A DNA stretch of 34,371 nt, from assembly GCA_015231515.1 (NCBI GenBank), contig JADGBM010000022.1, forward strand, positions 1 to 34,371, in the 5' to 3' direction. This DNA comes from Desulfobulbaceae bacterium (lineage in GTDB: Bacteria; Desulfobacterota; Desulfobulbia; Desulfobulbales; VMSU01). A model generated the notes under the pieces. That model saw only the letters and a list, made by a program, of their open reading frames with translations. It was not told the DNA's origin and searched no databases. The position numbers and the translations under genes were made by a program. Shown one piece after another: positions 31,188 to 34,371 of this stretch. Position 1 is the first letter of the stretch, and each line of letters begins with the position of its first letter.

Positions 31188-32153
31188 TCAGCAGTCGCAC
31201 TTTTGAGGATCACAAACACCGCCTCCACAGCCACAGGCCCCGGCGATATTAAGAGAAACAGGAGCAGAACCGGACTGTTTTTTGATCACATTGTCGATCA
31301 CTACTGCAAAGGCCTTGACTGCTGGGCTATCAGACTCAGAGGTCAGATACGGATTACCATCATCACCACCAAGCACGACACGCGGATCCATAGGCACACG
31401 TCCGAGAAAATTAATATTAAAATCCTTAGCCGTTTTTTCCCCACCACCACTCTTGAACACATCAACTGTTTTATTGCAGTGCGGGCAAATCAAGCCGCTC
31501 ATATTTTCAACCAGACCGACGATATTCATCTTAACATGTTTACAGAAATTAAGCGATTTCCGCACATCTGCCAAGGCAATATCCTGAGGCGTTGTAACCA
31601 CTAGAGCCTGCGCGTCGGGGATGGTATTGGCAATAGTTAACGGCTCATCTCCTGTGCCAGGGGGAGCATCAATGACCAGGTAATCCAGTGTTCCCCAATC
31701 AATATCAGCAATAAACTGGCGTATCGCCTGAATCTTGAGAGGGCCGCGCCAGATGATAGGATCGTCTCGATCTTCCATCATATACTCAAGTGAAATAACC
31801 TTGAGATTTTCACCAAATTTCATCGGGGGAAGCAAGCCGCCATTCTGCTGGGCATCTTTAAGGTTCTCGGTCAGATTCAACATCCGGCAGATATCCGGCC
31901 CATGCAGATCAACATCCATCAATCCGACTTTATAGCCTCTATTTGCTAAGCCAAGCGCCAGATTTGTAGAAACCGTACTTTTACCGACACCCCCTTTACC
32001 ACTCATCACCAGAATTTTATGTTTAATTCTACTTAAAGAAGTTTTAATCGAAACTTCCTGCTGGGCAATATGGGCTTTCGCCTGTTCCTGTGTCTTGCTT
32101 GATCCACAACCGGAACTTTTTTTACTATCACAACTACCGCATGAACTACCCAT
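31188..32153 (-). CDS. mrp: Mrp/NBP35-family ATP-binding iron-sulfur carrier
   Basis: The 321-residue protein has the deviant Walker A SGKGGVGKST at 51-60 and DVDLHGP at 80-86. The nucleotide-sensing segment IDAPPGTGDEP, the family CxxC (C223-C226, CPHC) and MDPRVVLGGD follow. It also has a cysteine-rich N-terminus (SSCGSCDS, GCGSS) and a C-terminus with CGCGGG and VCDPQKCDC. Mrp proteins bridge a 4Fe-4S cluster between two CxxC motifs and deliver it to apoproteins; terminal cysteine clusters are common in Desulfobacterota. GGAGGAG lies 7 bases before ATG 32153. It begins the tightly spaced run with the MBL gene 33 bases downstream, and a structured leader candidate lies upstream. Confidence 0.92.
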   Translation of the reverse strand: MGSSCGSCDSKKSSGCGSSKTQEQAKAHIAQQEVSIKTSLSRIKHKILVMSGKGGVGKSTVSTNLALGLANRGYKVGLMDVDLHGPDICRMLNLTENLKDAQQNGGLLPPMKFGENLKVISLEYMMEDRDDPIIWRGPLKIQAIRQFIADIDWGTLDYLVIDAPPGTGDEPLTIANTIPDAQALVVTTPQDIALADVRKSLNFCKHVKMNIVGLVENMSGLICPHCNKTVDVFKSGGGEKTAKDFNINFLGRVPMDPRVVLGGDDGNPYLTSESDSPAVKAFAVVIDNVIKKQSGSAPVSLNIAGACGCGGGVCDPQKCDC

Positions 32154-32193
32154 TACTGAACTCCTCCATTATATATAAAATACCATTCGGGTG

Positions 32194-32282
32194 TAGACCC
32201 TATGGTGGTCAACCCTCGTTCGCAACTCCTTGACACCCCGTAGCATCAACAACAGTTGCAGATGCTTCCCATATAGGGTCTA
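32194..32282 (-). promoter_or_regulatory. Candidate structured leader RNA of mrp (three-way junction)
   Basis: The gap of 210 bases before mrp contains three nested inverted repeats that fit one fold. P1 pairs TAGACCCTAT (32194-32203) with ATAGGGTCTA (32273-32282). P2 pairs AGCATCAAC (32242-32250) with GTTG (32255-32258) and GATGCT (32261-32266), leaving a two-base CA bulge and an AACA loop. P3 pairs GGTG and TCAA (32204-32212) with TTGA and CACC (32230-32237), leaving one bulged base. On the minus strand this would be in the mrp 5' leader, 40 bases before its start codon. It has no terminal T run. It may instead be a small mobile repeat; I recognise no known RNA family. Confidence 0.45.
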
Positions 32283-32363
32283 AAAGGATACAGTTGTTTA
32301 AGTCAGAACAAGCCTTATACCGCAAAGCTGATCATTTTAAAACTTCATTTTTCAGCTCTTTGT

Positions 32364-34371
32364 TCAGGTGCGGTCAGGATCAAGCAAAATACGACAATCG
32401 GCAACCGAGCATCCCTTCCCCCTTCGATGGACTATCAAGGGGTTGATATCAAGTTCGGCTATCTCCGGATTTTCCGTAGCTAGGGCAGAAAGCAGGGCTA
32501 AACATCGTTCAAGCTCATCCGTATCACATGGTTCGGCTCCACGAGCTCCGTTCAACATCGGATAGGCCTTTGTGGAGCGCACCATATACCGGGCCGCGTT
32601 ATGTCGAATCGGTGCCAGACGAAAGCTGACATCCTTAAATATCTCAACAAAAATTCCTCCCAGACCAAACATAAGAAGCGGACCAAACACTTTATAGCGA
32701 TTAATGCCAAGAATTACCTCGACCCCCTCCGGGGCCATCTGCTGAACAAACACTCCGGTAATTTCAGCATCAGGTGCGTTTCCTTTAACTACTGAGACAA
32801 TCGTTTCAAACGCTTTAGCTGCTTCTTCAGGTGTTTTTATGCCAACCATTACCCCGCCCAGATCGGACTTATGCACGATCTGGGGAGAAACAATTTTAAA
32901 TACCGATTTACCAAACTCCGTAACCGCTTGAGCGGCTTCCTGAGCTGTGGTGGCCAAGGCCGCCGGCAGCACCGGAAACCCATAGGCCTTTAAAATTTTA
33001 TTTCCTTCGACCTCCCCAAGATACATCTGCCCGTTGGCAAGGGCATCATCAATTATCTTGCGGGCGGTCGCCCGGTCTGGAGATATGGCTATTTCACTGA
33101 GATGCTGACGGTTAATCCATTTGGAATGCCGATACAACGCCCCCATAGCCCGAGCAGCCATTTCCGGAAAATGATAATGAGGCATCTTATTAGTTTCAAG
33201 AAAATCAATGGCCTCGCGGACATCCATCTCACCCATAAACGAGGTTAATACCGGCTTACCGCTCTTTTTGGCCAGGGCGGGAATAATTTGGGCGGTGGCA
33301 TAGATATCCGTCATAGACTGCGGTGTTAATATAAATATTACACCATCAACATTTTCGTCTTTTAAAACGGCCTCAAAGGCCGCCCGGTATCGATCAACAC
33401 CAGCATCTCCGATCACATCTACAGGATTATTGGTATTGGCCGTCTTAGGCAGGGCACTTTGCAAGGCCTCTTTGGTTTCAAGTGAAAACTCGGCCAAGGT
33501 TAAGCCCACATTGACAGTGATATCTGTGGCAATAATTCCGGGTCCGCCAGCATTGGTAATAATGGCAACACGGTTTGATTTTGGCAGTGGCTGAGTTGCA
33601 AAGGCAATGGCATAATCAAAAAGGTGACTAATGGTCTGGGCACGGTAGATACCGCTCTGCTCAAACAAGGCATCATAAATTGCCTCGGAACCAGCCAATG
33701 AACCGGTATGAGAGCTGACGGCTGCAGCCCCTGCAGATGTTCGTCCTGATTTAACAGCAACTATCGGTGTTGGATTTTCGCCTCCGGTAATCTCTCTAAC
33801 AACCTTTACAAACTCAAAACCATGCCGAAGATCTTCCACATACATCATAATAACCTTGGTCTGGGGGTCTTCATGCAGATATTTCAATAGGTCAAGCTCA
33901 TCAATGTCAGCCTTATTGCCGACTGATACAAACTTTGAAAACCCTATTTTCTTACGAGCAGCATAGTCGAGAACTGCTGTACATAGTGCTCCCGACTGAC
34001 TGATAAACCCGATATTACCGGGTAACGGAGGTCGTCTGGCGAAACTTGCATTAAGGCCAAATGAAAGATCCGTGTTGATTACCCCCAGACAGTTTGGCCC
34101 TATCAGACTCATGTTGTATTCATGGCATATTCCAATAAGTTCCTGCTCCAGCAGCAGGCCACTCGCGCCAATTTCCCGAAACCCAGCGGTTATACAGATA
34201 AGCCCCTTCACCCCTTTCTGACCCGCTTCTCTGGCAACAGAGGCAACCATAGTGGAGGGTACGATAATCACAGCTAAATCCACACTCCCGTCAATTTCAG
34301 CCAGTGAGGCATAGGCACGGACCCCACAAATCGAAAGTGCTTTAACGTTTACCGGATAGCTCACCCCCCTG
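32364..34371 (-). CDS. ADP-forming acyl-CoA synthetase / acetyltransferase-like protein (N-terminus cut by window edge)
   Basis: The frame is open to the right edge. Residues V-S-Y-P-V-N-V-K-A at the edge correspond to the usual YPVNPK segment, so about 50 N-terminal residues are missing. The GTG at 34364 is not a real start. The CoA-binding domain shows IGPNCLGVIN and FISQSGALCTAVLDYA, then SHTGSLAGSEAIYDAL with the histidine of the phosphorylated loop. The C-terminal ATP-grasp domain has KIVSPQIVHKSDLGGV, FGLGGIFVEIFKDV and LDINPLIV. Such fused alpha-beta proteins make ATP (or GTP) from acyl-CoA, ADP and phosphate, or run in reverse. Close homologs include protein acetyltransferases, but no GNAT domain follows here. 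It lies 210 bases upstream of mrp. Confidence 0.9.
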   Translation of the reverse strand, partial: RGVSYPVNVKALSICGVRAYASLAEIDGSVDLAVIIVPSTMVASVAREAGQKGVKGLICITAGFREIGASGLLLEQELIGICHEYNMSLIGPNCLGVINTDLSFGLNASFARRPPLPGNIGFISQSGALCTAVLDYAARKKIGFSKFVSVGNKADIDELDLLKYLHEDPQTKVIMMYVEDLRHGFEFVKVVREITGGENPTPIVAVKSGRTSAGAAAVSSHTGSLAGSEAIYDALFEQSGIYRAQTISHLFDYAIAFATQPLPKSNRVAIITNAGGPGIIATDITVNVGLTLAEFSLETKEALQSALPKTANTNNPVDVIGDAGVDRYRAAFEAVLKDENVDGVIFILTPQSMTDIYATAQIIPALAKKSGKPVLTSFMGEMDVREAIDFLETNKMPHYHFPEMAARAMGALYRHSKWINRQHLSEIAISPDRATARKIIDDALANGQMYLGEVEGNKILKAYGFPVLPAALATTAQEAAQAVTEFGKSVFKIVSPQIVHKSDLGGVMVGIKTPEEAAKAFETIVSVVKGNAPDAEITGVFVQQMAPEGVEVILGINRYKVFGPLLMFGLGGIFVEIFKDVSFRLAPIRHNAARYMVRSTKAYPMLNGARGAEPCDTDELERCLALLSALATENPEIAELDINPLIVHRRGKGCSVADCRILLDPDRT

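Follow-up and report, generated by a model that had tools for sequence, protein, structure and literature searches.

The locus examined here raises the question of what an elaborate inverted repeat represents when it lies in the leader of mrp, a gene that encodes an Mrp/NBP35-type ATPase in a member of the Desulfobulbaceae. The stretch of DNA that was analysed, which we call the window, is 34,371 nucleotides long, and near its right end a gene for an ADP-forming acyl-CoA synthetase-like protein (with CoA-binding, Succ_CoA_lig and ATP-grasp domains) is followed by mrp, both on the minus strand and separated by 210 bases. A preliminary description of the sequence placed three nested inverted repeats at positions 32194–32282, interpreted them as a three-way junction and proposed that they form either an RNA acting in cis on mrp or a small repeat element. 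Our analysis indicates that this 89-base structure is very probably the core of one copy of a family of dispersed, small, non-coding and non-autonomous mobile elements that insert 3′ of TTTAG. The features of the locus are as follows.

31188–32153, minus strand: mrp, Mrp/NBP35-type ATPase (open reading frame; PF10609, E 1.6e-97).
32364–34371, minus strand: upstream gene, ADP-forming acyl-CoA synthetase-like protein (open reading frame, truncated by the window end).
32179–32287, minus strand: whole element matched by the covariance model R1 (target T-run, P1, interior and 3′ hairpin).
32280–32285, minus strand: insertion target TTTTAG (family boundary TTAG; present in empty sites).
32273–32281, minus strand: P1 5′ arm AGACCCTAT, its AG part of the target (sequence, R1 and covariation).
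32195–32203, minus strand: P1 3′ arm ATAGGGTCT (sequence, second copy and R1).
32242–32266, minus strand: P2 hairpin AGCATCTGCAACTGTTGTTGATGCT, in a position matching the family hairpin AACATCTACG-NAAAA-CGTGTATGTT.
32204–32237, no strand assigned: P3, GGTGGTCAA / TTGACACC, present in the sequence and without family support.
32180–32194, minus strand: 3′ hairpin ACACCCGAATGGTAT, degenerate (family form ATACCC-GAA-GGGTAT).

All three inverted repeats were located where they had been reported. In the closing stem, P1, positions 32194–32203 (TAGACCCTAT) pair with 32273–32282 (ATAGGGTCTA), and the A at 32194 adds one pair to P1 in the copies of the source genome. P2 is formed by AGCATC/GATGCT around CAAC/GTTG (32242–32266), while the arms of P3, GGTG(G)TCAA/TTGACACC, bring together 32204–32212 and 32230–32237. 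The three-way junction holds as a DNA fold of the plus strand, but not as an mrp-sense RNA: the minus-strand transcript would fold into one long imperfect hairpin with the same closing stem (−37.4 kcal/mol, z −3.7). The interval first given was also too short, as the conserved part reaches to about 32179 and starts at the target TTTTAG (32280–32285). The start codon of mrp is 25 nt downstream of the end of the modelled element. Promoter and terminator identities were considered for the structure and dropped, as no terminator was found near the mrp copy and the promoter search around it gave one weak match against 0.9 expected, which is chance level.

The nesting of the stems had been considered improbable by chance. 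For the closing stem alone this does not hold, because the window contains four perfect 10-bp inverted repeats with arms 40–100 nt apart against 2.1 expected under a first-order Markov model, and taken by itself the stem is not significant. The structure is nevertheless real because it belongs to a repeat family, as seen from a second copy with the same arms and from a match to the model R1. Together with the covariation across the family these contradict a chance inverted repeat and leave it a negligible probability.

A BLAST search with a 109-base stretch returned one copy in the source genome and only weak, short matches in relatives. The single-copy status that this implied was wrong, since a search with the arm pattern AGACCCTAT...ATAGGGTCT revealed a second copy on contig C137, with identical 10-bp arms and a different interior. 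The window copy and the C137 copy share the 3′ flank TAYACCCGAANGGTAT, a small hairpin outside the interval originally described, and a search with this 3′ motif found more copies in the source genome and in related genera, several of them arrayed in tandem at intervals of about 110 bp. Further copies lie on C57, C59 (two tandem units), C137, C2, C40, C11 and C34, and the arms on C59, TAGATCCTTT/AAAGGATCTA, represent a compensatory change. A search with the exact-arm pattern across 84,980 genomes and viral contigs yielded 10 stretches, apparently chance matches or other repeats (for example a Pseudomonas REP pair), and no matches came from phage and plasmid collections or from two viral patterns.

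The covariance model R1 was built from nine aligned copies from other genomes, with the copies of the source genome left out. In the 34-kb window it has a single match, at 32179–32287 on the minus (mrp) strand (30.9 bits, E 2.2e-5), of which the target and P1 form the independent part, the seeds having been found via the 3′ hairpin motif of the source genome. An order-wide R1 search recovered the window copy at the same place, and in 91.6 kb of unrelated loci the best score was 8.9 bits. Across the order, R1 has matches at E ≤ 1 in 41 of 251 genomes, the weak ones of which may be chance; some genomes have at least 11–15 copies among the best 15 candidates scored per genome.

The element has a unit of about 90–190 bp, and its core, which starts at TTAG and stops where P1 ends, measures 87–95 nt (about 92, mostly 91–94) in 47 copies. 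In the nine-copy alignment P1 is paired in 98.8% of cells with both-side changes in four of the nine pairs, giving a covariation score of 0.287 against 0.110 for shuffled and at most 0.089 for slid controls. Over 47 copies P1 is 97.9% paired, with double changes in six of the nine pairs, and P1 and P2 together reach a covariation score of 0.388 against 0.157 (shuffled) and at most 0.121 (slid). The arms of P1 vary among copies and match within each, as in GACCCTTT/AAAGGGTC, GAGCCTCT/AGAGGCTC, GTGCCTTA/TAAGGCAC and others. In 19 chosen copies of the GACCC subfamily P2 (AACATCTACG-NAAAA-CGTGTATGTT) reaches 84% pairing, against 63% over all 47 copies, whose middle aligns poorly. RNAalifold over the 47 copies predicts P1 only, and P3 is absent from the consensus. 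The original observation is thus partly real: the closing stem is conserved and covaries strongly, P2 is probably conserved, with moderate support from the family, and P3 is not.

P2 lies near the left end of the unit and CCAGC/GCTGG near the right end. The 3′ tail is composed of one to three small hairpins and takes the form TTATACCCGAAGGGTAT, TTATACCCCTCAAGGGGGTACTGAAAAGAGTCCAGC..GCTGGGTTAG or, when short, TTATCCAGC..GCTGGGTTAG; the letters at the foot of the 3′ hairpin vary (CTTAT in the short form, AGAGT in the long form), and complete copies terminate in GGTTAG or GGCTAG. The interior is not conserved as protein, which suggests a family without coding capacity. In the mrp copy P1 is intact, P2 is present and the 3′ hairpins have decayed. 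The tail hairpin seems to be common to different families. At L154–L158 (genomes G229, G050, G225 and G230) the 3′ motif, TTATACCCGAAGGGTGT, recurs behind another short element, AAGCTGAGTTGAGCAGCTTGCCTGCTCAAACGAAAC.

Of 58 copies, 46 have a T directly before TTAG, and an open frame of 90 or more codons terminates exactly on the TAG of the element at 21 of about 55 sites. In genome G014 copies share 95% identity across 141 bp that run from TTAG through GGTTAG, and the flanks on its contig C221 are unrelated, while copy pairs in G001 have 92–93% identity. Several unlinked copies with sharp boundaries mark this as a mobile element. Empty sites were sought by searching the joined flanks of the G244 copies in sister species. 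The site on G244:C120 is empty in G242:C2 and G243:C41 (where CAGCTTGTTTAG runs directly into AT), that on G244:C55 is empty in G242 and G243, and that on G244:C255 is empty in G243:C16; the empty sites retain TTTAG without the element. These copies moved after the split of the sister species, into TTTAG sites that already existed. Comparisons at G244:C145, G245:C103 and, for C55, in G033 were left unused, the junctions aligning poorly. For the mrp copy no empty site can be demonstrated, since the mrp leaders of relatives cannot be aligned. The proposal of a small repeat element is borne out by at least five copies in the source genome and many in related genomes, with precise boundaries and empty sites. 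Many unlinked copies with target duplications, or a lack of compensatory changes, had been named in advance as evidence against the structure; the copies are indeed many and unlinked, yet compensatory changes exist between loci.

Several loci hold more than one unit or a second repeat. The tandem junction GGGTTAGACCC in G012 may have arisen by entry of a new copy downstream of the 3′-terminal TTAG of an older one. L145 (G244:C242) holds four tandem units spaced about 110 bp apart, in which a 5′ arm able to pair with the 3′ arm of its unit persists in the first alone and was lost from the later ones, and partial units also trail arrays in L146 and L147. In the source genome a 29-base perfect direct repeat of the unit start (L093:1880–1908 and 2009–2037, on G000:C137) follows the element as a remnant of a tandem unit, and on G000:C59 (L163) short near-repeats (GCGAAAATAAG) adjoin a truncated second copy. 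In two different families, represented by G027 (L203/L204) and G012:C41 (L225), the stop codon of the same PfkB-type gene is occupied by copies, through either descent or two insertions at the same TTTAG. In G014:C241 (L208) and G014:C170 (L209) elements appear to be nested in a GTAAC-type repeat, with flanks AGTTACAG... and GCTGAATAGTTAC.

The other suggestion for the mrp structure was that it regulates the gene in cis as a leader RNA, of a riboswitch-like or protein-binding kind. The element does occupy the interval that separates mrp from its upstream gene, on the strand of mrp, the fold of the mrp-sense strand beats shuffles (z −3.7) and P1 is conserved through pairing. The leaders of 28 mrp orthologs, inspected by eye, are however without such an element, and R1 matches in those genomes lie elsewhere. 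The genes beside family members are mutually unrelated (porin, FtsX permease, TrpE-like, PII, PfkB, YchF and FlgA), other copies are absent from sister species, and Rfam gave no match at gathering score over the window copy or over copies in ten loci. The cells of P1 that are not Watson–Crick comprise five G-T and four A-C, small counts without an excess of G-U, and so do not point to selection on a single RNA strand. This explanation was dropped after the comparison of mrp leaders, as the element is not conserved upstream of mrp orthologs, and we regard it as very unlikely.

The interval in front of mrp tolerates insertions, because the leaders of some relatives carry other small inverted repeats. 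These are of a different kind (GTAAC...GTTAC, for example TGTAACTATTCAGCTGC) and occur in L026, L034, L036 and L024; comparison of L024 with L025 suggests that about 55 bases were cleanly inserted into the mrp leader. The mrp copy is most likely an old intergenic insertion with no dedicated regulatory role, and a side effect of the element on mrp expression is possible.

The family resembles bacterial MITEs such as RUP, Correia/NEMIS, ERIC/RU-1 and YPAL in being small, non-autonomous repeats with paired ends and empty sites, some of them at gene ends. Most bacterial MITEs have fixed terminal repeats, TA ends and target duplications (PMC2229807). A classical MITE of this kind, with the terminal inverted repeats of a DDE insertion sequence and TA target duplication (IS630-like), is suggested by the symmetrical arms of the source genome, TA-GACCCTAT...ATAGGGTC-TA, which are perfect and flanked by TA at both ends on C22 and C137, and many bacterial MITEs look similar (PMC2229807). 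Unlike those, the arms here covary copy by copy, differing among copies while matching within each, so that a fixed sequence is not kept. The mobile unit moreover extends past the second arm, running 3′ of it to GGTTAG, the TTTAG target is one-sided, and GGCTAG at the 3′ end against TTTAG at the 5′ end argues against target duplication. The classical MITE is unfit because the mobile unit exceeds the arms and there is no clear target duplication, and it is scarcely more probable than a leader RNA.

Two further systems share some of the properties of the family. Like REP/BIME sequences with their RAYT (TnpA-REP) proteins, the element is non-coding, intergenic, palindromic and multicopy, with its structure kept and its sequence varying. 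REPs are 20–40 bp long and carry GTAG or a similar sequence at one foot (PMC3733652, PMC6006769), whereas the present unit is 90–190 bp with an insertion boundary at TTTAG, and there are no copies at 30 Y1 loci. Like integron attC sites it has a folded single-strand structure, a variable middle and tandem units, and the junction GTTAGAC happens to fit GTTRRRY. An attC identity was rejected: there is no matching R″ box, the base before TTAG is T and not G, and the empty sites show that TTTAG belongs to the target.

The closest parallel is with IS200/IS605 elements, in which the target is chosen by pairing with letters internal to the element and hairpins lie near the ends (PMC6006769). As in these and in their non-autonomous derivatives, the PATEs, insertion takes place 3′ of a short, fixed, one-sided target without clear target duplication, small hairpins lie near the ends, the last tetranucleotide resembles the target, and target letters pair with letters inside the element (principle in PMC6006769). 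TTTAG is retained at the left flank in both empty and filled sites, as expected of IS200/IS605 elements, and the target AG, although it lies outside the element, pairs with the CT of an internal CTTA in 46 and 47 of the 47 copies, G-U included. Unlike IS200/IS605, the family has a 9-bp stem joining both ends, which is not a standard feature of that group, a TTTAG target, a very short unit and no Y1 transposase near its copies. Y1 transposases occur in 16 of the 17 genomes tested, including genomes without copies. An R1 search of 30 Y1 loci found no element ends, and G001, a genome 84% complete, has six copies and no Y1 match, for which reasons the family cannot be filed as an IS200/IS605 element. 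No mobilising gene was found.

An IS200/IS605-like single-strand mechanism is our best inference for how the dispersed elements move. The unit begins directly 3′ of TTTAG, and the outer pairs of the nine-pair P1 include the target AG. The DNA would move as a folded single strand, the target being recognised by pairing with CTTA/CTA inside the 3′ arm of P1, in principle as for IS200/IS605, and an enzyme acting in trans would provide mobilisation. The GGTTAG or GGCTAG end makes each complete copy a fresh target, so that tandem units become possible.

Two other readings are less probable. The family could be a structured RNA mobilised via reverse transcription, or the guide RNA remnant of a TnpB/IscB-type element, as P1 covariation and P2, the several 3′ hairpins and insertion after T-rich TTTAG (in one case behind the T-run of a terminator downstream of a cobalamin riboswitch) might suggest. 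The exceptions in P1 are without strand bias and nothing in Rfam resembles the family, and this origin seems unlikely, if less so than a classical MITE. The riboswitch is at L150:816–1025 on the minus strand of G016:C25, upstream of a copy that directly follows a terminator-like T-run. Slightly better placed, though still a long shot, is a novel type of mobile element whose 3′ P1 arm would act as a long internal guide stem, pairing both with TTTAG and with the element's own left end. Similarly speculative is the rest of that reading, in which the folded strand defines both target and ends and the enzyme is linked to no known transposon.

The motif was not found in the literature searched, and the family of dispersed non-autonomous elements appears to be undescribed, a novelty that is provisional as the comparison was made without ISfinder, Dfam and most subscription papers. 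Its set of traits is unusual, combining an end-joining stem that covaries copy by copy with a one-sided TTTAG target and tandem growth. The target puts the element on TAG stop codons and leaves the gene unharmed, and the element's own 3′ end restores the target for tandem growth. Small structured leader repeats are easily confused with riboswitches, and here it is the family-wide evidence that tells them apart. How a non-coding element is recognised and moved when it has no fixed terminal repeats can be put to a concrete test in this family.
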